Below, piece after piece: positions 24,542 to 40,947 of a stretch of 43,112 nucleotides of DNA. The stretch's first letter is position 1; every line of letters begins with the position of its first letter. The DNA is taken from positions 1-43,112 of IMG/VR virus record IMGVR_UViG_3300021410_000001. One strand, 5' to 3'. Source of the stretch: a virus. A model generated the notes under the pieces. The model was not told the origin of the DNA and did no database searches. It saw only the letters and a program-made list of their open reading frames with translations. The translations under genes and the position numbers were made by a program.

Positions 24542-24574
24542 TCCACTGAATTTGCTGTAGGAAGGGAACACCTG

Positions 24575-24773: not shown

Positions 24774-24865
24774 GACGAGTGGAGGCGGGCGCGATATTCT
24801 GAGCGCCGCTAGCCCGAAGGGCTAAGCAATTAGAAGAAAACAGAATTTGGATTTTTGGCAGGCTT

Positions 24866-24945: not shown

Positions 24946-24992
24946 AAGTCTATTAGCTGATCACTGCATAAGCAAGCCCCTAGCAATTAGGG
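24907..24992 (+). promoter_or_regulatory. rep mRNA leader: target hairpin and RBS-sequestering hairpin
   Basis: GTGATCAGC (24907-24915) pairs with GCTGATCAC (24956-24964); inside it AGGCTTCT (923-930) pairs with AGAAGTCT (944-951), leaving a 13-nt loop CGACCGGGCAGGT. Near the start codon CCCTA (24978-24982) pairs with TAGGG (24988-24992) and covers the repA ribosome-binding site. Loop GGGC (24936-24939) is complementary to GCCC (24976-24979), which would break the blocking hairpin. That is the IncI-type pseudoknot design. A GTG-start leader frame (24907-24945, 12 codons) is preceded by GGGGG. Confidence 0.6.
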
Positions 24993-25001
24993 AAAGCAGC
25001 A

Positions 25002-26006
25002 ATGATCGATTCGGCCGCGCCTGCGGACCGGCCTCCCATGATGTGGGGGCGTTCCTCGTACAAGCATTCCGGGCAGTACCTGCGCACGGGCAACCGGTGC
25101 GGGCATGACCCGAAGAAACCCGATCTGGAAAGGCTGGCGCTACCGCAGCCGAAAAACGGGTTCATGCTCAAGATGCAGCAGACGCTGATCGAACGCGCCC
25201 AGCAGTATTACCACGCACCCAAAACCCTGCCCCTTCTGTCCAATCTGAGCCGCAAGCGCAATCGCGACGGCACGCCGCGCCAGAACCGCAGCGAAGGCCG
25301 CGAGGCGCAATGCCTGGTCCTCAGTGCGATCCTGGCCATGACGGACTATTGCTCGCTGCGCGTGGGCATACCGCAGCCCAATGGCTCGTTCAAGCAGCGC
25401 TCGATGGACGAAATTGCCCGCGCCTGCGGCCTGGTCAAGCCTGTCAAACCTACGGCTGAAAACCCTGCGCCTGATGACGTGCCGTCTAAGCGGTTCTGGC
25501 GCGCCATTGCACAGCTCAAGCGTGCGGCCGCGATTGAGATTTTCGAGCAGTACGAGGAAACACCCGATGGCAAGCGGGGCCGTCCGGCCATCAAGACCGT
25601 TTCGGAAAACTTTCTGATCGCCCTGGGGCGCCTGTCCTTTGCCGCCTTCAAGGCGTTTCGCGACGAGTGCAGCAAGAAGCTGCGCAAATGGCGTAACCAG
25701 TGGCGCACCGCAGCCCCCGGCGAGTTCGATGCGGCCAAAGCGGCTGAGAAGGTGCGCAAGGATCAAATGCGCCTCGGCGGCAGCACCCGCAAGCCGCGCA
25801 AGAATCAGACGCCAAAGACCCTGCCTGACGCCAACCCGCATGCCCAGTTGCTGGCTGACCATTCGGCGCATATGGCGGACGTGGCGGCGAAGATCGCCGA
25901 CCACATCGCCTCGAACGGACCTATCGGGCTGCGTGAGCGCCTGGCGCTTGAAAAGAAGTTCGGCCTGATGAGTTGGGACCAGTGGCAGCGACGACAAGTC
26001 GAATAG
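25002..26006 (+). CDS. repA: Plasmid-type replication initiator RepA-like
   Basis: 334 aa starting at ATG 25002, just behind the sequestering hairpin. The central region (SRKRNRDGTPRQNRSEGREAQCLVLSAIL, then GSFKQRSMDEIARACGLVKP and RFWRAIAQLKRAAAIEIFEQYEETPDGKRGRPAIKTVSENF) has the pattern of IncFII-type RepA initiators, with a winged-helix domain and a basic C-terminus (KKLRKWRNQWR). It would bind a nearby origin and recruit host replication proteins. Together with the leader and antisense RNA it forms a complete plasmid replicon in a phage. The family call rests on pattern and context. Confidence 0.75.
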   Translation: MIDSAAPADRPPMMWGRSSYKHSGQYLRTGNRCGHDPKKPDLERLALPQPKNGFMLKMQQTLIERAQQYYHAPKTLPLLSNLSRKRNRDGTPRQNRSEGREAQCLVLSAILAMTDYCSLRVGIPQPNGSFKQRSMDEIARACGLVKPVKPTAENPAPDDVPSKRFWRAIAQLKRAAAIEIFEQYEETPDGKRGRPAIKTVSENFLIALGRLSFAAFKAFRDECSKKLRKWRNQWRTAAPGEFDAAKAAEKVRKDQMRLGGSTRKPRKNQTPKTLPDANPHAQLLADHSAHMADVAAKIADHIASNGPIGLRERLALEKKFGLMSWDQWQRRQVE

Positions 26007-26475
26007 CCCGCCCGAGCACACTCCCCCCTCCCTTCCCGATCCCCTCGGCGGCCTCCTATGGCCGCTGTCAGTCACCTCACGTCTAAAACCCCGCCTTACC
26101 CTGCGTTCAACCTCTTTGCGCGCCCTGATGGGGCCGCCAAAGCCCCTCGATCCCTGCCTTTTCATCCGCGAGCGCCGCCCAGGTCGACGGCGCTGTAGAT
26201 AAGTAGGAATTTAAGTGTCCCAAGATGAAAATTAAGTCCGACTGGATTTTTTTAAGTGGGGACTGTTCTTTCCTGCTCTTTTCTTTAAGGCTTCTAGAAG
26301 CGGGCTCTGCCATGACTGGCAGGCCCTTTTTAAAATGCCTCGACAAGTCGAGAGCCTTTATGACGCAACCGTTCCGGTTGCAACGATGCCGCCCGCAAGT
26401 CGTGCCTACGGCACGGCGGGACGGGGGGAGGCGGCAGCGGTGCCGCCGTTCCGTCAATAAGGCGCCTTCCAGTCG
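26007..26475. other. Non-coding tract after repA, candidate origin region
   Basis: No convincing gene. In IncFII-type replicons the origin lies just downstream of repA, so this is the expected place. An AT-richer patch near 26200-26290 carries TTAAGT three times (about 26211, 26234, 26254) and GTCCC/GGGAC inverted blocks. A terminator lies at 26302-26331. The stretch 26360-26460 has several hairpins, such as GCAACCG with CGGTTGC and GTGCC with GGCAC. No DnaA box matching the consensus was found. Confidence 0.35.
26302..26331 (+). terminator. Terminator downstream of repA
   Basis: GGGC, bulged T, CTGCC, loop ATGACT, GGCAG, GCCC, then T5. It would end the rep transcript. Confidence 0.7.
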
Positions 26476-26742
26476 TTGCACGCCGCCTGCCCCTTCCTGT
26501 CGACCACAGACCGCGCAGCGGCGTTTCACTCCTTCACGCGCCGGGCTGACGCCCTGTGCGACGCTTCGCGTCGGGTGGACAGGACAGGGGGTCGGTCTGC
26601 CTCTTTCGCGCCTGGATCGCTTTCCTCGGCGGCCGTCTCGGCCCTTTTCGCCATTTACCGCGACACCGCGTGCGGCCGTTCGGGCCCGTGGTGCTGGCCA
26701 ATGCTGCGCGGCATTCTTTTAAATAACGGATTGACGGATTAA
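26476..26742 (+). CDS. Doubtful ORF in origin-distal tract
   Basis: An 88-codon ORF from TTG, without a ribosome-binding site. The product (RADALCDASRRVDRTGGRSASFAPGS) is Arg/Ser-rich and Cys-containing, which can result from reading GC-rich non-coding DNA. Its stop is formed by the octamer array (AATAACGGATTGACGGATTAA). I keep it because the frame is open and its end matches the array, as in neighbouring genes, but it may be spurious. Confidence 0.25.
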   Translation: MHAACPFLSTTDRAAAFHSFTRRADALCDASRRVDRTGGRSASFAPGSLSSAAVSALFAIYRDTACGRSGPWCWPMLRGILLNNGLTD

Positions 26743-26745
26743 CGG
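26722..26745 (+). repeat. Octamer array A (3 units)
   Basis: Three contiguous 8-bp units AATAACGG, ATTGACGG, ATTAACGG upstream of the 26809 gene. The same octamers recur in arrays B-G. Confidence 0.85.
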
Positions 26746-26808
26746 AATGTGATAGATTCATCGGCAAGGTCGGGCGATTTGCCAAGACCGCTTCCCGGAG
26801 AAATACCG

Positions 26809-27114
26809 ATGACTAAGCAGTCCCCTCACGTTATGGCATTGAAAGCCGATTTCCTTAATGACTACGGTTTCAAACTGAATGCCCGGATGGCCGGTGGTTC
26901 GCTGCGCGAATGCCTGATCCTGTCGATTCCCGAATTTCGCAAGGCCGAGCGCAGCGACCGTGCCAAGCTGGTCGAGATCGGCGGGTGGCTGGAAACTCGC
27001 GGCTTCTACCTGTGTCAGGATTATGGTCGGGCTGGTTTACTGTCTTCCCCGTCAGGGTGGACCTGTTGGAATGGTGGGGTTTCCGTTTTGGTGCGATACT
27101 TTGCCAAGGAATAA
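26809..27114 (+). CDS. Unknown 101-aa protein
   Basis: Starts at ATG 26809 with GGAG 9 bases upstream; GTG 26749 is a poorer start. The product (MALKADFLNDYGFKLNARMAGGSLRECLILSIPEFRKAERSDRAKLVEIGGWLETRGF) is mostly helical and moderately basic. No family recognised; a DNA-binding or accessory role is possible. Array A lies upstream and array B at its end (27110-27133), and its stop lies within array B. Confidence 0.65.
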   Translation: MTKQSPHVMALKADFLNDYGFKLNARMAGGSLRECLILSIPEFRKAERSDRAKLVEIGGWLETRGFYLCQDYGRAGLLSSPSGWTCWNGGVSVLVRYFAKE

Positions 27115-27133
27115 CGGAATATAGATTTAACGG
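27110..27133 (+). repeat. Octamer array B (3 units)
   Basis: AATAACGG, AATATAGA, TTTAACGG in 8-bp register. The first unit overlaps the stop codon of the preceding gene. Confidence 0.8.
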
Positions 27134-27140
27134 ATCATCA

Positions 27141-27163
27141 AACCGCCACTCTGTGGCGGTTTT
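27141..27163 (+). terminator. Terminator between two octamer-linked genes
   Basis: AACCGCCAC, loop TCT, GTGGCGGTT, then T. It follows array B directly. Confidence 0.75.
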
Positions 27164-27179
27164 CTATTGGAGTGAGTGG

Positions 27180-27590
27180 ATGTTTGGGCTGTTGTTGCGT
27201 GACGGGTCACAAATGGAAATTGAAGCGCCGGATTTGCTGGCGGCGATGCGTCATGCACTGCGAATGAGCGCGGATCTTCGAATCGAGGGTTGCCAGTCGA
27301 GGGTCATGCGACAGGACGAGATTCGCCAATCGCTTGAGTTGGATCGCCCAGGACTGTTCGAGCCTTATAACGCCGAGTGGCAACCGCCGTCGACCGCCGA
27401 ATTTCGGGCCTTGCTCGGCGTCGCCGAGCTGACCGGCAGTCAGGCCGCGAAACTGGTCGGCGTGGCACCCGGCAAGATCCGCAAATGGGCGGGTGGGGAC
27501 GGCGCGCCGCCTTATGCCGTCTGGCGCCTGCTGACGCTTTATGCCGGGCTTGCCCCACTGGTAACGTGGAATAACGGAAAAACGAAATAA
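27180..27590 (+). CDS. HTH (Xre-like) DNA-binding protein
   Basis: 136 aa from ATG 27180, with GGAGTG 5-6 bases upstream. Upstream in-frame codons (to 26910) belong to another gene. The C-terminal region TGSQAAKLVGVAPGKIRKWAGGDGAPPYAVWRLLTLYAGL is a helix-turn-helix of the Xre/antitoxin type. The N-terminal half has no recognised domain (MFGLLLRDGSQMEIEAPDLLAAMRHALRMSADLR). A candidate local regulator. Its stop codon is formed within array C. Confidence 0.7.
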   Translation: MFGLLLRDGSQMEIEAPDLLAAMRHALRMSADLRIEGCQSRVMRQDEIRQSLELDRPGLFEPYNAEWQPPSTAEFRALLGVAELTGSQAAKLVGVAPGKIRKWAGGDGAPPYAVWRLLTLYAGLAPLVTWNNGKTK

Positions 27591-27609
27591 CGGAATAAAG
27601 GATTGACGG
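27570..27609 (+). repeat. Octamer array C (5 units)
   Basis: AATAACGG, AAAAACGA, AATAACGG, AATAAAGG, ATTGACGG without gaps. AATAAAGG contains a Shine-Dalgarno-like AAAGG. Confidence 0.9.
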
Positions 27610-27620
27610 AAGCTGCGGGC

Positions 27621-29102
27621 ATGCCTAAGATTCCTTCAAGGTCGGACGACAGTCAGGACCGCAGAACGGAGCATTACCGCATGGCCCGCAAAGCCCCTCA
27701 AAAGTTTATTCCCATCGAAGAGCGCCCGGAGTTTCTGGCGCAGGTAGCGCGCCTTGCAGGCGTGGACTTCGCCGAATTCCCCGAGCGCGCCCGGGCTGTC
27801 GTGGCCCTGCATCATGATGCCGTGATCACCGGCGACCTGGCGCAGATGGACGCCACGCATTGCGCCTTCGAGGCGCTGGTCTACGTGCTTAACGGCAATA
27901 CCTTGTTCGGCAGTCGGGGCGATTCGCAACGGGCAGTGTCAGTGCTGGCCCGTGCGGTGGCGGCGGAGCCGGGCCGGGTGCCGTGCTGGGGGCAGTCCGG
28001 CGAGTTCCTGCTGGAAATCGACGGCATGCGCATTCGGGTCGAAGTGGAGGACGGGTTAAAGCCTCATCACGGCGTGGCGCTGCATGCCATCGACCTTGAC
28101 CGACCCTTTGTGAGCGATACGGGCTACCGGCATCACGGGGTGGATGAAGGTGCTAGCCTTGGCTTGACGGTCGATCAGGCCGTGCGGCGGGCGGTCGGTC
28201 AATTGATCAATGAAGTGAAGCCTAAACGCATCAAAGATGATGCCTATCTGCGCACAAAGCCCCCGGTAAGGCCGAAATGGCTGGCCGACGCTCTCGCGGG
28301 TGTGCAGCCGGATGGGCAATTGGCGATGTTCGGCGATGCGCCCATTTCGACAAAGCGCCCAGCCAAGAGCAACGCCCAGCGGCAGCGTGAACACCGGCAA
28401 AAACGTCGCCAGTTGAAAGAGCAGCAAGGCTTGCAACCGGTGCTGCTGAGCGAGCGCGAGCGCAAGATGATCGAGCTGATTCGCAGCAGCGGCACCCAAC
28501 AGCCAGGCCTTACAGATTTTCCGTTGGCCAGTGAGGTGGATTCGGTCGAAGCTGAGTTCAAGCACAAATTGGCGAATCGAGTCATCACCGGGCGCTCGAT
28601 CCAGTTTGATGACGTGGTGATCGACCTGCTGCCCCTGCGCGACCAAACCTTGTTACGGTGGGCGCAGCGCAATGAAGAGCTGGTGGCCGCCACCCCTGCC
28701 GATCAGGCTTATCCCGATGACCCAAAGGCGCGGAATGTGCTGGGCAAAGCGCTTAACGACCTGCACGAACTGCGCTCACGGTATCAGATGCTATTGGAGG
28801 TGACGCGCGAACTGTATGAAATGCTCGATGTTTCCCAGGCCTCGCCGCGTCTGAGTTCTCCTGCCGGTTTTGTGCAGGAGTACAAGCGCTATTCAGAAAG
28901 CTGGGCGGTCACTCGCGATTCGGAAAGTGACGGCGTTACGCGTAACAGGTTGTCCGACATTGGCAAGGGATTCATTAGGCCCAAAGTCGACAGCCTGCCG
29001 GAAACGGCGCTAAGACTGGTGAACGAGGTCGGTCTGCTCAAGGCATTGGCGGTACTGGCTGAGTGTGCCGACGCTGCGTCAATTAACGAATTAACGAATT
29101 AA
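27621..29102 (+). CDS. Unknown 493-aa protein with basic segment
   Basis: ATG 27621 (GGAA nine bases upstream) is proposed. TTG 27603, directly behind array C, and ATG 27681 (GGAG 10 bases upstream) are alternatives. Residues about 250-275 (AKSNAQRQREHRQKRRQLKEQQG) are strongly basic and helical, a likely DNA-binding region. The N-terminal part is acidic and rich in Ala/Glu; the C-terminal half is helical. I do not recognise the family. The last codons (INELTN) and the stop lie in array D. It contains a perfect dispersed palindrome at 28934-28947. Confidence 0.7.
   Translation: MPKIPSRSDDSQDRRTEHYRMARKAPQKFIPIEERPEFLAQVARLAGVDFAEFPERARAVVALHHDAVITGDLAQMDATHCAFEALVYVLNGNTLFGSRGDSQRAVSVLARAVAAEPGRVPCWGQSGEFLLEIDGMRIRVEVEDGLKPHHGVALHAIDLDRPFVSDTGYRHHGVDEGASLGLTVDQAVRRAVGQLINEVKPKRIKDDAYLRTKPPVRPKWLADALAGVQPDGQLAMFGDAPISTKRPAKSNAQRQREHRQKRRQLKEQQGLQPVLLSERERKMIELIRSSGTQQPGLTDFPLASEVDSVEAEFKHKLANRVITGRSIQFDDVVIDLLPLRDQTLLRWAQRNEELVAATPADQAYPDDPKARNVLGKALNDLHELRSRYQMLLEVTRELYEMLDVSQASPRLSSPAGFVQEYKRYSESWAVTRDSESDGVTRNRLSDIGKGFIRPKVDSLPETALRLVNEVGLLKALAVLAECADAASINELTN
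28935..28946. repeat. Dispersed palindrome GTTACGCGTAAC (perfect core)
   Basis: A 12-bp perfect palindrome in the 3' part of the 493-aa gene; the outer pair is CG/CA, so the 14-bp form has one mismatch. Confidence 0.8.
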
Positions 29103-29136
29103 CGAATTAACGAATTAACGAAATAACGGTTTAACG
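29081..29136 (+). repeat. Octamer array D (7 units)
   Basis: Five perfect tandem AATTAACG units, then AAATAACG and GTTTAACG. It lies at the stop of the 493-aa gene and just before the next start. It is the longest array and a good candidate for a principal centromere-like block. Confidence 0.95.
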
Positions 29137-29144
29137 GTGTTGTT

Positions 29145-29879
29145 ATGAGCGGCAAGAAACCAGACACACACCGCGAAGCCTCGTTGTCTCGGCCTGCACC
29201 GGCCGAGCCGTCAGCGCGGCCGGTCGGCAACTGGCGGTACTTCGAATCGCGCTTGCCGATCCTGCAAGGTCTGCCCCCTGCAAGGATTCGGGAAATTGCC
29301 GCGCAGGCTCGCCCTGGTGAGACGTGGAAACAGGCCATTACCCGGCTTGAGGGTGAGCAGCGTGCCCATTTTCTGGATGGCCTCAAGCCTTGCCGCCTGT
29401 GTCGGCAGGTGGAGCACTACCAGACCGAGGCCTGTAAGAAGATGGGCATTTGCGATGCATGCAATGTGGCGCTAGAGGCCGAGCTGTTCAAGGAGCTGGA
29501 CGAGGTAGAGGGGCATCCGGCCACTGCGGCGCCGAGCAGCCTTGTAGTGGCGTTGGGCGCTGATTGGGTCGCGTGTGAGGACGCATTGCCCTGGAACGAT
29601 TGGCGTTCGGACCTACATTACGTCGTATACAGCCCCGGCTATGGCGGGGAGCTGTACGTGTGCCGGTTCAGCCTAGGGGCTCCGCGCTGGTGGTGCGGGC
29701 CAGTCGAGCGGGGCATATCGGGTGTCACCCACTGGCGCCTAGCCTCGGCCGAAGAGCGCGGGCAGGTTTCCGTTCAGGCGCCGATGCCCGGCGCGGTTTC
29801 GTCTGTCCCACCTGGGGCGCTGGCCAGGCTGCGACATTGGTGGAATTGGTTTCGTGTCGAGCATGACATTGAAGACTAG
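29145..29879 (+). CDS. Unknown protein with zinc-finger-like Cys motif
   Basis: 244 aa from ATG 29145, no strong ribosome-binding site. Residues about 85-105 carry CRLC...CKKMGICDAC, an apparent Zn(II) site. The first part (RYFESRLPILQGLPPARIREIAAQARPGETWKQAITRLEGEQRAHFLDGL) is helical. Residues about 140-200 (GADWVACEDALPWNDWRSDLHYVVYSPGYGGELYVCRFSLG) have strands and Trp. It may be a nucleic-acid-binding regulator, but no family is recognised. Array D ends nine bases before its start. Confidence 0.65.
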   Translation: MSGKKPDTHREASLSRPAPAEPSARPVGNWRYFESRLPILQGLPPARIREIAAQARPGETWKQAITRLEGEQRAHFLDGLKPCRLCRQVEHYQTEACKKMGICDACNVALEAELFKELDEVEGHPATAAPSSLVVALGADWVACEDALPWNDWRSDLHYVVYSPGYGGELYVCRFSLGAPRWWCGPVERGISGVTHWRLASAEERGQVSVQAPMPGAVSSVPPGALARLRHWWNWFRVEHDIED

Positions 29880-29911
29880 GCCTCTCTGTCCGTCAGGCCT
29901 GCCCCCTGCGG

Positions 29912-30175
29912 TCATGAGGGCGTGCGTATGCGTTCTTTGCTCAACAGGCCTTGCAGCAGGTGCAGGGCGACCAGATTTCCGCCGACATTGTCGCGCCAAG
30001 CGTTCTGGATCGACCCATAATAACCATGGATATCGACCATCATTCGGCGATAACGAACGATTTCCAGCACCAGGCGTTTCACGTCAGGATCGGTCGTGCG
30101 ACCGTACAGCCTGCGCAGTTCAGCCATGGTGACCGGTTCGAAAGGTGGCAAATCGCGCAGCATGGCATCGCTCAA
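29912..30175 (-). CDS. Unknown 87-aa protein, minus strand
   Basis: A minus-strand ORF among plus-strand genes. The sequence (PPFEPVTMAELRRLYGRTTDPDVKRLVLEIVRYRRMMVDIHGYY) has typical coding character and a helical pattern with several aromatic residues. Its start faces the 30250 gene across a LexA box (30178-30193), so the two may be divergently controlled by LexA. There is no recognised family and a weak ribosome-binding site. Its function is unknown. Confidence 0.5.
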   Translation of the reverse strand: MSDAMLRDLPPFEPVTMAELRRLYGRTTDPDVKRLVLEIVRYRRMMVDIHGYYGSIQNAWRDNVGGNLVALHLLQGLLSKERIRTPS

Positions 30176-30177
30176 GG

Positions 30178-30193
30178 CTGTATATTTGAACAG
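30178..30193. promoter_or_regulatory. LexA (SOS) box
   Basis: CTGTATATTTGAACAG matches the LexA consensus CTGT-N8-ACAG exactly. It lies 57 bp before the 30250 start codon, with a weak -10 TATTCT beside it, and directly at the start of the divergent minus-strand gene. Confidence 0.8.
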
Positions 30194-30249
30194 TATTCTG
30201 TCAGGTGTTGGAGACGATCACCACGGCAAACCTACAAACGGAAGGCCAC

Positions 30250-30492
30250 ATGAGTGAAACGCAAGAGCAACGGCGGGCAAGGGTGCTGGCTGATTTTCAG
30301 GAAGCGTTGCACGATCAAGACGCGCTATTGCGCGACCCTGACGAATACACCGCGCCGCTGATCGAGCAGGTGACGGCCGCCGCAGGTCGTGGCGACATCA
30401 GCGCCGAGGACTTACGTGAGGCGCTGGAGTGGGCCGAGGCGGCGCAGGCCTGGGCGCTGGAAGAATTATTTACCCGCGAACTGAATCAGTAA
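30250..30492 (+). CDS. SOS-controlled small acidic protein, candidate antirepressor
   Basis: 80 aa from ATG 30250, with GGAAGG upstream. It is strongly acidic and helical (ADFQEALHDQDALLRDPDEYTAPLIEQV, then DISAEDLREALEWAEAAQAWALEELF). It is first in an operon with the UmuD'-like gene six bases downstream and is behind a LexA box. Small acidic LexA-controlled proteins that inactivate a phage repressor are known (Tum of 186, Gifsy antirepressors). No family match is claimed; the antirepressor idea is from context. Confidence 0.6.
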   Translation: MSETQEQRRARVLADFQEALHDQDALLRDPDEYTAPLIEQVTAAAGRGDISAEDLREALEWAEAAQAWALEELFTRELNQ

Positions 30493-30498
30493 GGTTTG

Positions 30499-30846
30499 AT
30501 GGCCATGCTTGAAGACATGCCCGCATCGCTGTCGATTGACCAGGTGGTGAACCTGCGGGCGCCGGAAACCTATCTGGTGCGGGTGCAAGGGGACAGCATG
30601 CAGGGCGCCGGGATATTCAGCGGCGACATTCTCGTTGTCGACAAAGGGCGAGAGCCTATGCGCGGCAATGTCATCATCGCCGTGATCAATGATGAGCCCA
30701 TCTGTAAACGTCTGGACTACTGCGAGGGCGCGCCGGTGTTGCGTTCGGACAATCCGAAATACCCGCCGCGATTCATCCTCGAAAGTGATCGTTTCGAGGT
30801 GTGGGGAGTCGTCCGCTACAGCCTGCGCGACCACGACCGCAACTGA
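30499..30846 (+). CDS. UmuD'-like S24 family protein
   Basis: 115 aa from ATG 30499 (AAGG upstream; TTG 30496 also in frame). GDSM carries Ser33, and ICKRL carries Lys70, 37 residues later, as in UmuD Ser60/Lys97. The N-terminal arm with the Cys24-Gly25 cleavage site is absent, and the size equals processed UmuD'. Phage P1 encodes a comparable protein, HumD. No umuC follows. Roles could be polymerase V accessory, interference with host UmuD or LexA, or interaction with the CI-like repressor. Confidence 0.85.
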   Translation: MAMLEDMPASLSIDQVVNLRAPETYLVRVQGDSMQGAGIFSGDILVVDKGREPMRGNVIIAVINDEPICKRLDYCEGAPVLRSDNPKYPPRFILESDRFEVWGVVRYSLRDHDRN

Positions 30847-30858
30847 TCGCGGCGTTGA

Positions 30859-31176
30859 TCAGGCAAGAATCTCGATGCCGTGCTTTTCGACGATGGTCAG
30901 CAGTTTGAGCGCCATGCCGCTTGGGCGCTTGTCGCCGGTTTCCCACTGTTTCACTGTCGACGCACTGGTGTTCAGGTATCGGGCGAAAACCGGTTGGCTG
31001 ACGTGGCTGAGCTGGCGAATTTTTTTGATTTTCGCCGCGTCGAATTCTGGCACTTCGGCAATGCACGACTCGTCAAATTTGCGCATGGTTGCCTTGTTGA
31101 TGGCGCCGATAGCCAGCAGCGCGCTGGCTGAATCGTGAATCGACTCGAACGCATCACTTTTGAATTTCTTAGACAT
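30859..31176 (-). CDS. HigA/Xre-type antitoxin
   Basis: 105 aa from a minus-strand ATG at 31176, with GGAGAT upstream. The C-terminal half is an Xre-type HTH (AKIKKIRQLSHVSQPVFARYLNTSASTVKQWETGDKRPSGMALKLL). It overlaps the toxin gene by 8 bases. Toxin-first order (toxin, then antitoxin) fits HigBA-like and RelE-type modules with Xre antitoxin. It would neutralise the toxin and repress the operon through the palindrome at 31548-31566. Both genes are AT-richer than their neighbours. Confidence 0.88.
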   Translation of the reverse strand: MSKKFKSDAFESIHDSASALLAIGAINKATMRKFDESCIAEVPEFDAAKIKKIRQLSHVSQPVFARYLNTSASTVKQWETGDKRPSGMALKLLTIVEKHGIEILA

Positions 31177-31519
31177 TGCACATCTCCACGAACTGTTTCT
31201 GTTTAAGCAGAAGCTTGATTTGCTCGTCATTGAGTTTTTCGTAAACCTTGGCCAGATCCTTAAAGGCTGCTAGCTCCTTTTTGGTGATGTTCTCCTGATC
31301 CTTTTTGGCGAACAGGAACTGATACACCCAGTAGTCACGACCTTTGGCCAAGATGATGGAGCGGTAGCGGTTTTCATTCAGGCGTTTCTTCCATACGCCG
31401 CCGCCCAGGTCGTCCGCCTGGCCCTTTACGACTTCCTCAATGGCTTCGCACAGTTCGGCATCGGTAATGTCGGCTTTCTTAGCAGCGGTGGCAAAGCCTT
31501 TTGTCTTGAATACTCGCAT
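31169..31519 (-). CDS. RelE/HigB-type toxin
   Basis: 116 aa from minus-strand ATG 31519, with GGGAGAC upstream. The sequence (RVFKTKGFATAAKKADITDAELCEAIEEVVKGQADDLGGGVWKKRLNENRYRSIILAKGRDYWVYQFLFAKKDQENIT) matches the RelE-like toxin family with the usual Lys/Arg-rich RNase core. Members cut translating mRNA. With its antitoxin it would kill or arrest cells that lose the element, a plasmid maintenance function. It is likely autoregulated by the upstream palindrome. Confidence 0.88.
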   Translation of the reverse strand: MRVFKTKGFATAAKKADITDAELCEAIEEVVKGQADDLGGGVWKKRLNENRYRSIILAKGRDYWVYQFLFAKKDQENITKKELAAFKDLAKVYEKLNDEQIKLLLKQKQFVEMCNV

Positions 31520-31547
31520 CGGCGTTCCGTCTCCCTTGTGATTAAAA

Positions 31548-31566
31548 TATAACACTAGGTGTTATA
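31548..31566. promoter_or_regulatory. TA operon operator palindrome
   Basis: TATAACAC, spacer TAG, GTGTTATA: 8-bp perfect arms about 30 bases above the toxin start. It probably overlaps the TA promoter and binds the antitoxin. It resembles the TACAC-N3-GTGTG units at 24761 and 42847. Confidence 0.75.
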
Positions 31567-31633
31567 GATTGCTAACGTTTTGTGCTACCGTTGGCGACAC
31601 CAACACGGCGATAACGAACCGGGAACACGAATC

Positions 31634-31885
31634 ATGAGCACGCTGCGCGCGGCACAAAAAACCCAGATCCGCGTCAACGCGGCGCTGGATATGATCGATC
31701 AGGGGCAAGACGAGCTGAGCACGCGTTTTTGCGTGGCCTATGCCATCGGCTACATCGATGCCCTTTGCGATGAACGCCTGATCAGCGTCGACGGGGCCCA
31801 GTTGTACCGCGAAGACGCCTATGCGCGGCGCCGAGTCCGGCTAGCCGCGCTGGGCGTGGAATGGGTGGACGATTCGCCGCGCTAG
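31634..31885 (+). CDS. Unknown 83-aa protein
   Basis: ATG 31634 preceded by GGGAAC. The product (AAQKTQIRVNAALDMIDQGQDELSTRFCVAYAIGYIDALCDERLIS) is helical, with a basic C-terminus. It opens a run of small early genes, divergent from the TA operon. No family recognised. Confidence 0.6.
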   Translation: MSTLRAAQKTQIRVNAALDMIDQGQDELSTRFCVAYAIGYIDALCDERLISVDGAQLYREDAYARRRVRLAALGVEWVDDSPR

Positions 31886-31906
31886 AGATAGCGCGGCGAG
31901 CGGGCG

Positions 31907-32041
31907 CTAACGCGCGACGTGCACGATCACTATCGGCACCGAAACGCTAACGGCAGGCGGTGGGGCGGTGACGGCATTGACGATCACGTAAACGGCCAGA
32001 TCGAGCAGAAGAGTGACAAGGAAGGATTTTAGGTGGTGCAT
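31907..32041 (-). CDS. Possible small membrane protein, minus strand
   Basis: 44 aa from minus-strand ATG 32041 (CGGGA upstream). One hydrophobic segment (FLVTLLLDLAVYVIVNAV) and a Val-rich tail. The coding status is uncertain: it sits alone between plus-strand genes. Confidence 0.35.
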   Translation of the reverse strand: MHHLKSFLVTLLLDLAVYVIVNAVTAPPPAVSVSVPIVIVHVAR

Positions 32042-32173
32042 GTCGGTATCCCGATTTAGGTATGGGATACGAATTAGGTAATCACGACTTTTTAATTGCC
32101 TCTTGCGGGAAATTCGCCCGCAGAGCGTTGCCAATCACGACAATATTGAAGTCAAGAGAAAGGAACCCCACTG

Positions 32174-32401
32174 ATGCCATTGATCGACATTGAACCGCTT
32201 AGGCCTGGCAGTGAGGCCGTCCAGTCCGCCAAACGTGCGTGGTATGCCGCTGAGGAGGCCTTGCGCGCACAGGACAAGGCCGACCAAGAAGGCTGGCATC
32301 TGGCCCATGAGCGCTGCGAGACGGCCCGCGAGGTGTACAACGACCTGTGCCGGGACCTGGCCAGGGACGTGCATGCGCTGCTGATCGCCGCCCAGGCGTG
32401 A
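32174..32401 (+). CDS. Unknown 75-aa helical protein
   Basis: ATG 32174 with AAAGGAA ahead. The sequence (EAVQSAKRAWYAAEEALRAQDKADQEGWHLAHERCETAREVYNDLCRDLARDV) is a strongly heptad-like, charged helix, probably a coiled coil. An early accessory gene by position; function unknown. Confidence 0.6.
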   Translation: MPLIDIEPLRPGSEAVQSAKRAWYAAEEALRAQDKADQEGWHLAHERCETAREVYNDLCRDLARDVHALLIAAQA

Positions 32402-32473
32402 CCCATCCCAACCGAAAGGAACCCCGGCCGCGCCATCCCGGAACGGCCATCAGACGCAGTACAAGGAGTCGCT

Positions 32474-32683
32474 ATGCAGTTGCATGAAGTCGAGCAAATC
32501 CAAGAGCTGTTCGCGGTCGAAGAAGTGAACGAGGCCTTGCAGCAGGGCTGGAAGATCGTCGCAGTGGTGTCATCGGCCGAGCCGGGGGCGACTGCTACGC
32601 CGGTAGCCTGCTACGTGATGGGCCGCAAGTTCCCGAAAAAAGACCCGCTCGCCAGCGGGCTCGGTCGCCACGTCACCGGGTAA
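32474..32683 (+). CDS. Unknown 69-aa protein
   Basis: ATG 32474 with AAGGAG. EVEQIQELFAVEEVNEALQQGWKIVAVVSSAEPGATATPVACYVMGR looks like a small beta-alpha protein of the kind found with DUF1737-type sequences. Not enough for a firm family call. Confidence 0.6.
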   Translation: MQLHEVEQIQELFAVEEVNEALQQGWKIVAVVSSAEPGATATPVACYVMGRKFPKKDPLASGLGRHVTG

Positions 32684-32719
32684 CGCCGCGTTACGAATAA
32701 CGGGTGTTCCGTTAAATAG

Positions 32720-32755
32720 GCCCCCTGACTTTCCAGCAAGTCCGGGGGCTTTTTT
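32720..32755 (+). terminator. Rho-independent terminator
   Basis: GCCCCC then GACTT/AAGTC inner stem, then GGGGGC and T6. Confidence 0.8.
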
Positions 32756-32851
32756 GTGGAATGTAGAAACAGACTTCCGGTAAACTGGCAACAGAATTAC
32801 CGGAAACCTGTTTTCGCGTAATGCTACCCACCACTCGCAAAAGGAAAGGCC

Positions 32852-33190
32852 ATGACCCGGATCGATCACAGCGGCACCCCGAGCGCCGAATACCGTTTTT
32901 TTATCTACGACGCCCTAGATGGTGAATTCTCCTACTACCGAAGCGCCGAAGACCGCGACGCGGCAAAGCGCGGGGTTATCGAGAGTTACCTAGATGACGG
33001 GTGGAACGATGAGGTGGAGCAGGTTCTGGCCGGGGAAATCACCCACACCTGTCAGAAGATCGATGTCCAAGAGCGGCCGCCTGAGAATGAAATCGGCGAA
33101 GACGGCCATGATCTCGACGGCATGTACTGGGAACCCGAATGGTCCTATCGCTGCGATTACGACCTGTTGCCGCTGACGCCCGAGGCGTAA
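32852..33190 (+). CDS. Unknown acidic 112-aa protein
   Basis: ATG 32852 preceded by AAAGGAAAGG. The sequence is acidic and Tyr/Trp-rich (YRFFIYDALDGEFSYYRSAEDRDAAKRGVIESYLDDGWNDEVEQVLAG, then YWEPEWSYRCDYDLLPL). DNA-mimic-like acidity is notable, but no anti-defence family is recognised. It begins an early-gene operon followed by the Lar-like gene. Confidence 0.6.
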   Translation: MTRIDHSGTPSAEYRFFIYDALDGEFSYYRSAEDRDAAKRGVIESYLDDGWNDEVEQVLAGEITHTCQKIDVQERPPENEIGEDGHDLDGMYWEPEWSYRCDYDLLPLTPEA

Positions 33191-33212
33191 CGGATTCGGG
33201 AGAACCGCCGAC

Positions 33213-33521
33213 ATGCACCCAATAACTGAAATTGAGCCGTGCCCGTTTTGCGCCGGTCCGGCTCGCGCGGATCTGTTCAGTGATGCCACTGGCGTGCTGC
33301 GTGAGCAGATCCGCCCGCATCCCGCGCTGGCCGACTGTGTTGCCTACGTCTGGTGCCACGAATGCGGCGCCCAGGGCCCGAGCCTGGACGTGGGCGCGCT
33401 GGCAACTTTCGAGAATCTGCGCGACATCGATGCCAGCGGGCTGCGTCAGTTGGCTATCGAGCGCTGGAACAAACATCGCACGTTACCCGTAACGGATTTA
33501 GATCGACACAAGGAGGCCTAG
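33213..33521 (+). CDS. Lar-like restriction alleviation protein
   Basis: 102 aa from ATG 33213, ribosome-binding site GGGAG. EPCPFCAGPARADL, then VWCHECGAQGPSLD and AIERWNKH match the Lar family layout: a Cys-Pro-x-Cys pair, a Cys-x-x-Cys pair followed by Gly-Ala/Gln-Gly, and an Arg-Trp-Asn end. Lar in Rac prophage reduces type I restriction by altering modification. The longer insert between Cys pairs is unusual. It carries the palindrome CGTTACCCGTAACG at its 3' end (33481-33494). Confidence 0.75.
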   Translation: MHPITEIEPCPFCAGPARADLFSDATGVLREQIRPHPALADCVAYVWCHECGAQGPSLDVGALATFENLRDIDASGLRQLAIERWNKHRTLPVTDLDRHKEA

Positions 33522-33523
33522 CC

Positions 33524-33775
33524 ATGGCCAGCAAGAAAGCCGACACCCTGACCCTCACGCTACGCGCCGATCAATTGGCCGAGGTCGACGACTACTTGGC
33601 TAAGCAAGCCACGTACCTGTCGTGCGGTGATGACCCTGAGCAACTGACTGCCGCGATGGTCGAGTTTGAAACCGCTGCGCAGACAGTGGCCGACATCCTC
33701 GGTTTCATCCGCAAGGCCCAGTTGGAGAAAGACCGGCGCCGGGCGCACTTCACACAGCAACTGGCGGCCGAGTAA
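33524..33775 (+). CDS. Unknown 83-aa protein
   Basis: ATG 33524 with AAGGAGG. Helical (LTLTLRADQLAEVDDYLAKQATYLSCGDDPEQLTAAMVEFETAAQTVADILGFIRKAQLEK). Early accessory gene. No family recognised. The codons upstream in the same frame belong to the previous gene's shadow. Confidence 0.6.
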   Translation: MASKKADTLTLTLRADQLAEVDDYLAKQATYLSCGDDPEQLTAAMVEFETAAQTVADILGFIRKAQLEKDRRRAHFTQQLAAE

Positions 33776-33797
33776 CGGATTCAATCAAGGAGACAGC

Positions 33798-34100
33798 ATG
33801 GCTAAGGTCATGAGCGAAGAGAGCCAGGCGCATCACGGAGCCGAGCTGCAACGGCGCATCGATACGTTCGCGCAGGCGGTGGACGTGTACAGCCTGAAAA
33901 TGGAAGCGGCCGAGGCGCGCGGTTATCTGAATGGCATGGTCGATTTTGGCGGCTTGCCGGTGATGATCGGCGAAGCCTGGGAAGGCCGTATCAAGAAAGC
34001 TGAACAGGCTCAGATGCGCCGCCTCAAGCCGCGCAAGATCAAAGAAAAGCCGCCGACTGATGCAGAGGTTGAGGCGGCCATGGAATTTTTGTTTAGGTGA
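33798..34100 (+). CDS. Unknown 100-aa protein
   Basis: ATG 33798 with AAGGAGAC. The N-terminal half (SEESQAHHGAELQRRIDTFAQAVDVYSLKMEAAEARGYLNGMVDFG) is helical and the C-terminus is basic (RIKKAEQAQMRRLKPRKIKEKPPTDAEVEAAMEFLF). Early accessory gene; no family call. Confidence 0.6.
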   Translation: MAKVMSEESQAHHGAELQRRIDTFAQAVDVYSLKMEAAEARGYLNGMVDFGGLPVMIGEAWEGRIKKAEQAQMRRLKPRKIKEKPPTDAEVEAAMEFLFR

Positions 34101-34121
34101 CGGATTGAGGAATATGAGCAC

Positions 34122-34391
34122 ATGAGCAACCCCAAGCAGCGGAAGGTCACCGGCATTACGTGGTGGACCACGGCGCAGGAGGCCTATCTACGCAAGGCCT
34201 ATCCAGACACCCCGATGGAACAGTTGGTGAGCGCACTACGGCGTTCGGCGACGGCCATCCAGAAGCGTGCCGAGGTGCTGGGCGTCAAGCGCAGCGCTAC
34301 CTTTCTTGCGAGTGAGCATGGCGGCCGGTTGCGGCCGGGCACTACACGCGGCATGGCGACACGCTTCAAGCGCAAGGCCGTGTCCGAATGA
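34122..34391 (+). CDS. HTH DNA-binding protein (SANT/GcrA-like)
   Basis: 89 aa from ATG 34122. WWTTAQEAYLRKAYPDTPMEQLVSALRRSATAIQKRAEVLGVKR is the pattern of small phage HTH proteins of the SANT/GcrA kind: W(S/T)xxExxLxxAYP and a second helix with RSxxAIxxRAxxLGV. The basic C-terminus supports DNA binding. It is probably an early regulator. Confidence 0.7.
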   Translation: MSNPKQRKVTGITWWTTAQEAYLRKAYPDTPMEQLVSALRRSATAIQKRAEVLGVKRSATFLASEHGGRLRPGTTRGMATRFKRKAVSE

Positions 34392-34612
34392 CCCCGGCCC
34401 AGCGCGTCACCCTCGGCCTGCTGAAAAGTGAAGGTTTCGTGCTCGATGTCGAGATTCGCGACATCGTGCGCGTAAGCCGCTTCGGAACTTGTCGTTTGAT
34501 TCTCCCTGACGGCACGCAAAAGCGTGGCCATCAGCAGGCCCACCAGCAGGACCAGAAGCGGCAGCAGCGCGGTAGCCAGGCGGGTAAAAAACCCGTTAAG
34601 CGTCGGGGATGA
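34388..34612 (+). CDS. Unknown 74-aa basic protein
   Basis: ATG overlaps the previous stop (ATGA), so it is coupled to the HTH gene. The first part (PAQRVTLGLLKSEGFVLDVEIRDIVRVSRFGTCRLILPDG) is strand-helix mixed and the last 30 residues are Gln/Lys/Arg-rich and low-complexity. No family recognised. Confidence 0.55.
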   Translation: MTPAQRVTLGLLKSEGFVLDVEIRDIVRVSRFGTCRLILPDGTQKRGHQQAHQQDQKRQQRGSQAGKKPVKRRG

Positions 34613-34671
34613 GTAAGATGCACCCCGTTACCGTAACGGATCTGGCAAGGGCCGCTAATGAACACGATTGA
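34609..34671 (+). CDS. Possible micro-ORF (20 aa)
   Basis: ATG overlaps the previous stop (GGATGA) and would encode MSKMHPVTVTDLARAANEHD. The palindrome CGTTACCGTAACG (34626-34638) is within it. It may only be linker sequence carrying the palindrome. Confidence 0.25.
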   Translation: MSKMHPVTVTDLARAANEHD

Positions 34672-34673
34672 CC

Positions 34674-34973
34674 ATGCGTGAAGCGATTGATGAAAAGCTG
34701 CTGAAAGGGCTCATTGCCGGACGTGGGGTCAGCGACTTTCTGATCACGCAGGACGAGGCAGGTAAGTTCATCCTGCACGTTCGCTACACGGGGGCCACGC
34801 GCTGGCTGCCCATCCGCTCCCGTGAAAAGAATCCGCGTACCTGGGCGAGCCTGGACACCTTGGCGAGCCAATTGTGGAAACTGGGCGTCCGAGAGTGGCG
34901 CACCGAGTTGAGCCAGCCAGTCGGAACAAGTCACGACCATAAACTGAGGCCGAAAAAAAACCGCCCTGAATAG
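34674..34973 (+). CDS. Unknown 99-aa protein
   Basis: ATG 34674 chosen (TTG 34668 adds two residues). The sequence (EKLLKGLIAGRGVSDFLITQDEAGKFILHVRYTGATRWLPIRSREKNPRTWASLDTLASQLWKLGV) resembles small conserved phage proteins with a helix-strand-strand pattern. The function is unknown. A bidirectional-looking terminator lies in its tail. Confidence 0.6.
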   Translation: MREAIDEKLLKGLIAGRGVSDFLITQDEAGKFILHVRYTGATRWLPIRSREKNPRTWASLDTLASQLWKLGVREWRTELSQPVGTSHDHKLRPKKNRPE

Positions 34974-34984
34974 GCGGTTTTTCT
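34961..34984 (+). terminator. Rho-independent terminator
   Basis: CCGCC, loop CTGAATA, GGCGG then T5; A-rich upstream side could serve the other strand as well. It overlaps the end of the preceding ORF. Confidence 0.75.
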
Positions 34985-35020
34985 TTGGTGGTCCGGTTAG
35001 TGGCCTTTCCACCGTCTTAC

Positions 35021-35036
35021 AGGAAGCATTGACGTG
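35021..35036 (+). repeat. Start-cassette direct repeat, copy 1
   Basis: AGGAAGCATTGACGTG, exactly repeated at 35266-35281. The 5' flank CTT-A/G-C is also shared. It consists of a ribosome-binding site, spacer and a GTG start. Confidence 0.85.
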
Positions 35037-35147
35037 GATTTATCCTACAACGAGTTGTCACGCGTGACAACTATGTCAAAGGGCCGCGTCATGCGATACG
35101 CGGCAAAGCGTCGTAATGGCACTGAGCAGGCACAGAGGCTACTATAG
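35034..35147 (+). CDS. Micro-protein, 37 aa, with start cassette
   Basis: GTG start preceded by the start cassette AGGAAGCATTGACGTG, in which AGGA is a ribosome-binding site. The product (MDLSYNELSRVTTMSKGRVM RYAAKRR split at residue 20) is basic and may bind nucleic acid. The 20-bp palindrome (35053-35072) lies in its 5' part. Coding is supported by repetition of the cassette at 35266-35281 before another ORF. Confidence 0.5.
   Translation: MDLSYNELSRVTTMSKGRVMRYAAKRRNGTEQAQRLL
35053..35072. promoter_or_regulatory. 20-bp perfect palindrome
   Basis: AGTTGTCACGCGTGACAACT, fully self-complementary. It is coding for the first micro-ORF in one frame yet has the form of a TetR- or Kor-type operator. 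Possible recombinase or operator site. Confidence 0.65.
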
Positions 35148-35265
35148 CGCTGTCAAACGCAGATCGTTACGTTCTGTCGGGCAATGTACAGATTTCGGAC
35201 CGAGGGCGCGGGCTAGTAATCCGCGCGGATTTAACCCGAGGCCCATCCACCCGACCGAACCTTGC

Positions 35266-35281
35266 AGGAAGCATTGACGTG
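35266..35281 (+). repeat. Start-cassette direct repeat, copy 2
   Basis: Second copy of AGGAAGCATTGACGTG, 245 bp from the first, again followed in frame by an ORF. Confidence 0.85.
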
Positions 35282-35344
35282 CAACTGACGGCGCTATGTG
35301 TTCCGGAAAAAGCGGCGGCGGGGAGGTCATTCAGAGACCTTTAG
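35279..35344 (+). CDS. Micro-protein, 21 aa
   Basis: GTG start in the second cassette. The 21-residue product contains LCVPEKAAAGRSF and ends RDL. It ends one base before the next micro-ORF. It might serve as a leader peptide for the 35346 ORF. Confidence 0.35.
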   Translation: MQLTALCVPEKAAAGRSFRDL

Positions 35345-35345
35345 T

Positions 35346-35444
35346 ATGAAGCCATTGCTGATTACACTGAAAGATCTGGTGATTCGTATCGTGGCTCACG
35401 CTCTTTACGACTTCATGCGTGATCACTGGAAGGACGGGTTCTAA
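35346..35444 (+). CDS. Micro-protein, 32 aa
   Basis: ATG 35346, following the previous stop immediately. The product (KPLLITLKDLVIRIVAHALYDFMRDHW) is amphipathic and hydrophobic, possibly membrane-associated. A strong terminator follows at 35470, which supports a small transcription unit. Confidence 0.45.
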   Translation: MKPLLITLKDLVIRIVAHALYDFMRDHWKDGF

Positions 35445-35469
35445 CGAGCCCTGATAGCTGGGGAGGAAG

Positions 35470-35501
35470 CCCGCCGAAGCTTATGCCAAGGCGGGTTTTT
35501 T
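35470..35501 (+). terminator. Terminator after micro-ORFs
   Basis: CCCGCC, loop with AAGCTTATGCCA, GGCGGG, then T6. Confidence 0.8.
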
Positions 35502-35511
35502 CTTGCCCAAC

Positions 35512-35533
35512 AAAAAGCCCCGTTTCCGGGGCT
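35512..35533 (-). terminator. Terminator of the par operon
   Basis: On the minus strand GCCCC, GGAAAC, GGGGC and TTTTTG. It converges with the preceding plus-strand terminator. Confidence 0.8.
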
Positions 35534-35548
35534 CATGCGTTACGCCTA

Positions 35549-35797
35549 TCAGGCGATGCCGTGGGCTTTCTTGTACAGTTCGAAGCCCTCCTTGAGAACG
35601 TCCGTCATGGGCTTGTCGTGCATGGTTGCGGTCATCTTGAAGTCTTTTTTGAAGTCCGCAGGCACCGAGAAATTCAGGGCCACGAACTCGCCACTCGGGG
35701 CCTTTTGCGTGCTGTCCTGGCGCGACAGTACGTCCTCCGGAGTCGCTGGTGGCAAACCTTTCGTGCCGGGTTTCTTGAGGGTGGTTTTAAGGGCCAT
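35549..35797 (-). CDS. Ribbon-helix-helix centromere-binding protein (ParG/ParB-like)
   Basis: 82 aa from minus-strand ATG 35797 (AAAGGAACG upstream). Residues 1-35 are basic and unstructured. Residues about 36-80 have the RHH layout: a strand (EFVALNFSVP), helix 1 (ADFKKDFKMTATMHD) and helix 2 (PMTDVLKEGFELYKKAHG). This matches small partner proteins of type Ib ParA systems. It probably binds tandem repeats; array E is in its upstream spacer. It would form the partition complex and autoregulate the par operon. Confidence 0.75.
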   Translation of the reverse strand: MALKTTLKKPGTKGLPPATPEDVLSRQDSTQKAPSGEFVALNFSVPADFKKDFKMTATMHDKPMTDVLKEGFELYKKAHGIA

Positions 35798-35806
35798 GAG
35801 TTCGTT

Positions 35807-35830
35807 CCTTTAATTCGTTAAACCGTTAAT
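35807..35830 (-). repeat. Octamer array E (3 units)
   Basis: Minus-strand units ATTAACGG, TTTAACGA, ATTAAAGG in the parA-RHH junction. ATTAAAGG provides the RHH-gene ribosome-binding site. Confidence 0.85.
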
Positions 35831-36462
35831 TCTTCGACTTTGTTGATGATAGCCTGAATCAGTTTTTCAGCTTCTTCGCGCGGGCCTTGATAAGGCGTTT
35901 CAAGGATCGACTTGCCCACGTCCATGGCGCGCCGGAACGAAACCTTTTCCGGGATGTGCCCGTCCAGCACCTGATAGGGTTTCTGTCCAAGGTACTCGCG
36001 CGCCTCGGCAATTTCGCTTTCGCTGTCGCCTGTGTGGTTCAGCGCGAAAACGATGCGATTGGCCGGTACGCCGTGCTTGAGGTGAATCCGGTCGGCCAGT
36101 ACCGCTGCCGGACGCAGATCGTCCAGGGCAAGCGCGGTCGGAATGATGACCAGATCCGAAGCCTTGGCGATGTCGACGGTAATCGTGCTGGTTTCGCCCT
36201 TCGGGTCGAAAATCACCACGTCGTAATTTTGCGTGTGTTGAATGGCCTGGGCCACGCTGCCGAACGGCTGAGCGAAGACTGCGGGCTGATGCCCATTGGA
36301 AAGACGAATCTTCACCCACTCGGTTGAGGTAAGTTGATCAAGGTCGAAGTCGGCAATGATGGCCGACCACTCCAATTGCGCGAACCCGACCGCCAAGCCG
36401 CGTCCAGTGGTGGACTTGCCAGGTCCGCCCTTTTGAGAAATAAGCCCGATCTTGAAAGCCAT
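35818..36462 (-). CDS. parA: ParA-family partition ATPase
   Basis: 214 aa from minus-strand ATG 36462 (AAAGGAAAAG upstream). The deviant Walker A motif QKGGPGKSTTG (about residues 10-20), ADFDLDQLT, and Walker B-like VVIFDPKG are clear. The length and lack of an N-terminal HTH fit type Ib plasmid ParA proteins. It would segregate the replicon by DNA-bound ATPase gradients with the RHH partner. Arrays E and F flank it, the first overlapping its 3' end. Confidence 0.9.
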   Translation of the reverse strand: MAFKIGLISQKGGPGKSTTGRGLAVGFAQLEWSAIIADFDLDQLTSTEWVKIRLSNGHQPAVFAQPFGSVAQAIQHTQNYDVVIFDPKGETSTITVDIAKASDLVIIPTALALDDLRPAAVLADRIHLKHGVPANRIVFALNHTGDSESEIAEAREYLGQKPYQVLDGHIPEKVSFRRAMDVGKSILETPYQGPREEAEKLIQAIINKVEELTV

Positions 36463-36469
36463 AGCTTTT

Positions 36470-36501
36470 CCTTTAAATCGTTAATCCGTTGATTCGTTAC
36501 C
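36470..36501 (-). repeat. Octamer array F (4 units) upstream of parA
   Basis: Minus-strand units GGTAACGA, ATCAACGG, ATTAACGA, TTTAAAGG. It lies directly before parA, with TTTAAAGG serving as the ribosome-binding site. Confidence 0.88.
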
Positions 36502-36532
36502 ACCAGCCGAGTATAGATCGCGCCGGGCAAGC

Positions 36533-36564
36533 CATCAAGGAAAAACGGAATAAAGGAATAACGG
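36533..36564 (+). repeat. Octamer array G (3-4 units)
   Basis: CATCAAGG (weak), AAAAACGG, AATAAAGG, AATAACGG in 8-bp register. It lies between parA and the LuxR-like gene. Confidence 0.8.
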
Positions 36565-36566: not shown

Positions 36567-36983
36567 TTATGCGAATGCGACAGTGCGTCCGGGCGGACCG
36601 CCTGCGGGGGAGGTGACATTGCGCATGCACCGGCTGTACTCGGTGAATGTACGGCTGCGGCGCTGGGATTTTGGGCGCGTGAAATCCTGATCGATTTCAA
36701 TGGCGGCGATAAAGCAAAGCAGTACGCACAGCGCCTGTGGAATGAGTACGCCCAGGGTAAACCCCCGGGTGATCATGTGAACCTTGTTCTTTGCCGCAAG
36801 CTTGCCTTGAATGGATCGCTCGATTTGCAACAGCCCCAGGGTTTCTATCTGCATGCGTTCAGCGATCACGGGCGAGGGAACACCCTCGGCCAGGCTGACC
36901 AGCACAAGCAATTCGTTATCAGTCAGATTCTGGCCGGGCAGGCCTATCACTTCTTCGCCTTGGATTTGGGCGCGAGCGTTCAA
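36567..36983 (-). CDS. LuxR-type HTH protein with membrane segment
   Basis: 138 aa from minus-strand TTG 36983, preceded by AAGGA. NLTDNELLVLVSLAEGVPSPVIAERMQIETLGLLQIERSIQGKL is a LuxR/GerE-type HTH, followed by a hydrophobic segment (VLIPQALCVLLCFIAAIEI). Similar short HTH-plus-membrane proteins are common in Pseudomonas phages. It might be a membrane-linked regulator. An alternative ATG-start upstream frame would add unrelated residues. Confidence 0.7.
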   Translation of the reverse strand: MNARAQIQGEEVIGLPGQNLTDNELLVLVSLAEGVPSPVIAERMQIETLGLLQIERSIQGKLAAKNKVHMITRGFTLGVLIPQALCVLLCFIAAIEIDQDFTRPKSQRRSRTFTEYSRCMRNVTSPAGGPPGRTVAFA

Positions 36984-37012
36984 TGGGGCGCTTCCTTGCG
37001 AGGGGGAGGGGG

Positions 37013-37264
37013 TTATTCTTGAGAGGCGATAGAAAGGCCCAGTGTGTCCAGATGCTTTCGCATCACGGTGGCCAAGGCCAAGATGCTGTCGATGTGTTCG
37101 AGGTCTGCATGCCCTTCGTTGATGCAGAGCTGTGAGATACCTTGAATGCCTGCGCATAGCCCGTTGACTTCAACGACAGCTTGAAACAGCACCGCCTGTT
37201 TGGCCTTGGTGATGCTGACTACATTCGAATTCTGTTGAACCGCCAAATTGCTACCTTGCTGCAT
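37013..37264 (-). CDS. Unknown 83-aa protein next to CI
   Basis: Minus-strand ATG 37264. Helical product (SITKAKQAVLFQAVVEVNGLCAGIQGISQLCINEGHADLEHIDSILALATVMRKHL). It resembles small Pseudomonas proteins of unknown function. Located between the LuxR-like and CI-like genes, its promoter region contains a CI-like operator (37299-37313). Confidence 0.65.
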   Translation of the reverse strand: MQQGSNLAVQQNSNVVSITKAKQAVLFQAVVEVNGLCAGIQGISQLCINEGHADLEHIDSILALATVMRKHLDTLGLSIASQE

Positions 37265-40944: not shown

Positions 40945-40947
40945 CCC

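Follow-up and report, generated by a model that had tools for sequence, protein, structure and literature searches.

Octamer arrays spread across a probable plasmid-prophage accompany a ParF-ParG-like partition module

Introduction

RHH proteins contact DNA through a beta strand inserted into the major groove. MetJ is an RHH protein that binds tandem 8-bp met boxes, the sequence of which differs from that of the octamer described here. The parH boxes of TP228 read ACTC and are spaced 4+4 = 8 bp, where the present locus instead has the octamer AWTAACGR. In parH, tetramer boxes alternate with AT-rich spacers to form an array, and the operon that encodes ParG is repressed by ParG itself (PMC7308502). 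On pSM19035 the RHH protein omega acts on non-palindromic tandem repeats, several arrays of which overlap the promoters of other genes; partition and copy control are exerted by this one protein, and four contiguous repeats are required for full ParA stimulation (PMC9499535). RedRock and Miko, whose prophages are extrachromosomal, encode ParA and a DNA-binding ParB; each of their parS loci consists of an 8-bp motif repeated eight times in direct orientation, and Miko has an additional parS after repA (PMC7157519). The plasmid prophage N15 carries several scattered partition sites, IR1-4, together with SopB (PMC5016525, PMC7205306).

The DNA analyzed here, a virus record of 43,112 bases (the window), encodes ParA and an RHH protein and carries arrays of the octamer in two zones about 6 kb apart. 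An initial annotation had proposed that the RHH protein binds all arrays and so couples partition to control of the genes at 26809-29879. In this study the arrays, the genes beside them and their counterparts in related phages and plasmids were compared.

Results

The window carries a 127-bp direct repeat at both termini, and the genome is therefore probably complete. Its genes include a GpA terminase, a lambda-type portal, a ClpP-fused capsid protein and contractile-tail genes, as well as a tyrosine integrase and an S24-type repressor. It represents a temperate phage with a contractile tail, the prophage of which is probably a low-copy plasmid; the plasmid state is suggested because the close relatives are circular plasmid records carrying phage gene sets, and because a possible replication initiator is encoded at 25002-26006 (+ strand). 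The ParA-RHH pair, the possible Rep and the terminal repeat are plasmid-type traits, whereas the tyrosine integrase is a contrary one, and with that enzyme encoded, integration of the prophage is possible. The candidate initiator is a conserved 334-aa protein with a tentatively assigned winged-helix core, for which the matches were weak and the structure prediction poor (pLDDT 62); the depositor of Vibrio phage PE002A names a gene in the corresponding region RepA. It was absent from the records of several close relatives (L019, L028 and L036), which may use another initiator. Nucleotide searches of phages with the 26.4-36.7 kb stretch as query gave no relative, and those of plasmids a single 128-bp match; a scan of genome contigs found no close relative, its output being dominated by general ParA motifs.

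When the window was scanned for runs of at least three octamers in 8-bp register, with at most two mismatches per octamer, exactly seven arrays were found, comprising 28 units; in 100 shuffles the mean was 0.01 arrays and the maximum 1, and a separate 16-mer scan returned 25 matches against 1.12 expected. The seven arrays, about 28 octamers and strict register of the initial annotation were thereby recovered, along with its coordinates for every array except D, which occupies 29082-29137 and had wrongly been started at 29081. Arrays A (26722-26745, 3 octamers), B (27110-27133, 3 octamers), C (27570-27609, 5 octamers) and D (7 octamers with one mismatch overall) are on the plus strand, as is G (36541-36564, 3 octamers); E (35807-35830, 3 octamers) and F (36470-36501, 4 octamers) are on the minus strand. 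The arrays had been described as sitting at gene starts and stops, and this held: TAA stop codons of three distal genes, ending at 27114, 27590 and 29102, lie inside B, C and D, respectively, and that of parA (35818-35820) lies inside E. A GC hairpin follows B.

Arrays A to D border four plus-strand genes, which encode proteins of 101 aa (26809-27114; 50-67% identical in 9 relatives), 136 aa (27180-27590; a weak HTH match), 473 aa (27681-29102; 36-51% identical in 7 relatives) and 244 aa (29145-29879; following D). The first of these genes was kept in 9 loci and the second in 12, and relatives that keep the distal genes have arrays at the positions of A, B and C; the 473-aa protein had no family match and no relative among deposited phages. 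The second unit of A and the last unit of C are a variant, ATTGACGG, which supplies the -35 of two predicted promoters: TTGACG-16-TAGATT (26731-26758, +) for the 26809 gene, and TTGACG-17-TAAGAT (27603-27631, +) for the 27681 gene. Nine relatives had TTGACG-16/17-TAAGGT/TAGAGT at the position of the array A promoter. Taking the window and its relatives together, the TTGACG of the variant octamer, ATTGACGA/G in A and C, stood 16-17 bp before TAGATT, TAAGGT, TAAAGT or TAAGAT; a -10 at 16-18 bp followed 13 of 36 TTGACG octamers and 0 of 135 TTAACG octamers, a difference whose significance is overstated by the relatedness of the loci. No promoter match was found inside B or D. If A and C were covered by a protein, the -35 would be masked, as would the greater part of the spacer.

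Behind A and C lie two copies of a 59-nt structured leader (26753-26811 and 27625-27683, both +), placed before the 26809 and 27681 genes, respectively. Its inner stem is formed by AAGGCCGGGC and GCCAAGGCC, and its outer stem pairs with the Shine-Dalgarno sequence. The leader was conserved in L008, L009, L013, L015, L016, L017, L019, L020, L021, L028, L035 and L036; 25 copies were found, 23 of them immediately 3' of an octamer array, and in their alignment 95% of cells were paired, with both-side changes in 7 of 12 pairs. Rfam gave no match to the leader, nor to any other part of the window. The leader may control translation of the genes behind A and C. In L016, L019, L028 and L035 the outer-stem complementarity extends into the -10 hexamer, which could not be part of a transcript begun at the array promoter. 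L020 and L021 have a promoter, CTTGCA-TAATAT, 33-34 bp before their leaders, with the palindrome GGACGAAAAGTCC between the hexamers and an octamer array upstream at 3 of 5 such sites; the palindrome is possibly a second operator.

The partition genes lie on the minus strand. ParA (35818-36462, 214 aa) is a small Walker-type protein without an N-terminal HTH, and its profile matched ParF (4dzz) over the full length (positions 4-206, E 3e-13). The 82-aa protein encoded at 35549-35797 is a candidate centromere-binding protein of the RHH type: its profile matched ParG (1p94, E 0.0015), its predicted fold retrieved RHH proteins, and in the predicted structure helices at residues 47-59 and 64-78 follow an N-terminal stretch of 40 residues of low confidence. 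Thus a ParF-like ParA, an RHH protein with a flexible N-terminus in the same operon, and repeat arrays flanking the -35 and -10 of the operon promoter (F and G) occur together, which points to a partition system of the ParF-ParG (type Ib) kind. MetJ and omega had been put forward as analogues. Omega gave a profile match, weaker (E 0.36) than that of ParG, and this part of the analogy stands as a weaker relationship; as the true family it was set aside, the arrays of the window having a period of 8 bp and none of 7 bp. MetJ was discarded, as it did not appear among the profile matches of the RHH protein. A function can hence be proposed for phrog_6024, the phage protein family to which the 82-aa protein belongs and which is listed as of unknown function.

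The parA promoter, TTGATG-17-TATACT (36510-36538, -), lies between F and G; F begins directly after the -10, and its last unit is the parA Shine-Dalgarno site, while G, inverted, lies directly before the -35. Array E, between parA and rhh, provides the rhh Shine-Dalgarno site as ATTAAAGG. The F/G arrangement was repeated in most relatives, and the array upstream of parA was inverted in all six genomes compared. Next to G lies a gene for a small LuxR/sigma-like protein (36567-37157, -; phrog_3282), kept in 32 phage loci and missing from the non-phage plasmids that share the par module.

Relatives were collected by ParA (40-59% identity) from IMG/VR, from isolated Vibrio and Aliivibrio phages, and from plasmids. 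The same module with 8-bp arrays was present in about 30 of them, among which are isolated Vibrio phages as well as phage-plasmids of Pseudomonas, Aeromonas, Edwardsiella and Halomonas. In every locus from L008 to L047 a small ORF begins within 75 bp after parA, and nearly all of these ORFs have an RHH signature. In 1.75 Mb of sequence from the window and its relatives, 47 strict tandem arrays had a period of 8 and 0-6 had each other period from 5 to 15, the arrays coming almost all from the loci closest to the window. The 8-bp spacing is thus shared by related genomes, and arrays, whose absence from the par operons of relatives would have spoken against the original proposal, were present in nearly all close relatives; clear arrays were missing from most of the more distant ParA relatives (L039-L047). 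The octamer itself varied between phages (ATTAACGA, ATTAAAGA, AGCACGAA, TTAGCGAA and also AGCGTTAT, which is ATAACGCT on the opposite strand), and the 8-bp period remained constant. In six annotated relatives, 40 of 46 arrays of at least three units fell in noncoding sequence, where 5.7 would be expected; the highest number reached in 2000 placements was 15. In the P. aeruginosa phage-plasmid pPAC1.3b (L108), a Tn3-family transposon (38274-42774) that carries a toxin-antitoxin pair lies within the phage genome.

Array direction agreed with that of the surrounding genes in 39 cases and was opposite in 1 (six genomes including the window; the six inverted arrays upstream of parA left out). The stoperators of mycobacteriophage L5 likewise lie mostly in a single orientation with respect to transcription (PMC6550527), and the arrays might similarly be a genome-wide transcription brake, at which bound RHH protein halts lytic and late elongation in the prophage. 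Arrays between structural genes in VPHZ6, PE002A and other phages fit such a role. The octamer, however, supplies TAA stops and, as ATTAAAGG, Shine-Dalgarno sites, so that the common direction is partly accounted for by these signals; moreover, the scan for at least three units found no array among the structural genes of the window. We therefore regard a transcription brake as unlikely.

The arrays could in principle be read by a protein other than the RHH protein, since genes for the S24 repressor, the LuxR-like protein, the 27180 HTH protein and the possible initiator all adjoin arrays, and 32-33 loci have kept the repressor and the LuxR-like protein; alternatively they could be initiator iterons. 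Three mobilisable non-phage plasmids, pZM3H1, pTHAF12_c and PP6 of P. cerasi, share parA-rhh with the window (ParA identity 42-48%); on each, period-8 arrays precede parA and occupy the gap between parA and rhh. None of the three gave a match to the S24 repressor, the LuxR-like protein or the distal genes, the HTH gene among them, and these proteins were rejected as octamer readers on account of their absence from array-bearing plasmids. The arrays of the non-phage plasmids were few and nearly all at par. Because plasmids sharing only parA-rhh have arrays at par, the arrays belong to the partition module. At 24400-26900, near the possible Rep, a search for iteron-type repeats found unrelated short repeats only. 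With arrays following parA-rhh, and the octamer tracking a residue of the RHH protein (below), recognition by any of these other candidates is highly improbable.

The beta-strand residue of the RHH protein aligned with Ser44 of the window protein tracked the last base of the octamer: lysine went with A at 21 of 21 scorable loci and arginine with C at 9 of 10, the exception being L034 (arginine, base T), and serine went with G or mixed bases. The rule was fixed in writing before more plasmids were fetched; the newly obtained L119, L120, L121, L124 and L127 agreed by eye with the lysine-A pairing, and L122 and L128 agreed with arginine-C but hardly differed from a case already known. At least four changes of the residue and three of the base fall on the ParA tree; three independent pairs could be formed, of which two agree, none disagrees and one is undecided, a number for which the sign test is underpowered. 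The covariation is therefore suggestive, resting on two to three independent changes and not being significant, and the association may be a simple candidate recognition code.

Discussion

Taken from the sequences compared, the arrays are very probably landing sites of the phage's own segregation protein. We consider it likely that the window carries a type Ib module in a plasmid-prophage, in which the RHH protein acts on dispersed operator/centromere arrays and so ties segregation to the distal genes. Directly seen are the arrays, promoter-like sites within them, the co-occurrence with parA-rhh and the residue-base association; from these we infer binding by the RHH protein, its control of the 26809-29879 genes and its part in partition. 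RHH dimers, one per octamer, would line up along the arrays in 8-bp register. At F and G they would occupy the DNA on either side of the parA promoter, giving autoregulation of parA-rhh, in which E would also take part, and at A and C they would cover the -35 of two distal promoters and repress the distal operon. The longest arrays, D above all, would gather the number of dimers needed for ParA stimulation and serve as the centromere. One protein would then link segregation of copies with distal gene expression.

The best candidate for the centromere is array D, whose seven units are nearly perfect, because full ParA stimulation by omega requires a run of four contiguous repeats; by the same reasoning A, B, E and G may serve as operators alone. 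In five of the seven arrays there are just 3-4 units, at or under that threshold, and together with the promoters inside A and C, and the non-phage plasmids that manage with few arrays at par, this would suit an arrangement in which the RHH protein binds every array, has its partition role only at E, F and G, and uses the distal arrays as plain operators. On the other side, B and D are without a promoter, D is the longest and most perfect array, and many arrays of other phages lie between late genes; we hold such a division of labor to be possible, though the less probable account.

If segregation and distal expression are indeed tied as we favor, a further step can be considered tentatively: the partition protein might be a genome-wide prophage regulator, its segregation complex, assembled on arrays at par, at the distal operon and, in relatives, at the borders of late genes, restraining lytic genes during plasmid partition. 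If so, lytic genes would be freed when the complex is lost or, at high copy number, titrated away, and the same sites would serve as the readout for both partition and the lysogeny decision. The comparison reveals many phage-plasmids with probable partition sites spread across the genome at gene borders, and makes it testable whether partition complexes control prophage gene expression as well. The octamer sequence should also help determine which phage-plasmids coexist, allowing predictions of incompatibility.

The window resembles TP228 ParF-ParG in its small ParA and RHH protein encoded in one operon and in the unstructured N-terminus of the latter; unlike TP228, which has one centromere and one operator at the operon, it also has arrays 6 kb away at other promoters. 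With delta-omega-parS of pSM19035 it shares an RHH protein and tandem repeats in several arrays, some at known or, in the window, predicted promoters of other genes, whereas that system has a 7-bp repeat, separately transcribed genes and a Gram-positive plasmid, and the window arrays have a period of 8 only. The direct repeats of RedRock and Miko agree with the window arrays in their 8-bp period; their arrays lie around the partition cassette and repA, and no description of remote-operon promoters within them was found. N15 differs in having a SopB-type HTH ParB and inverted repeats, in place of which the window has an RHH protein and direct octamers. A ParF-ParG-like module of a Gram-negative phage-plasmid with genome-spread arrays was not found in the literature searched, the coverage of which is incomplete. 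RHH partition proteins on tandem repeats, copy control by omega, 8-bp parS repeats and the dispersed sites of N15 are each known separately; what appears to be new is the genome-wide dispersal of the arrays at gene borders, some of them enclosing predicted promoters of remote operons.
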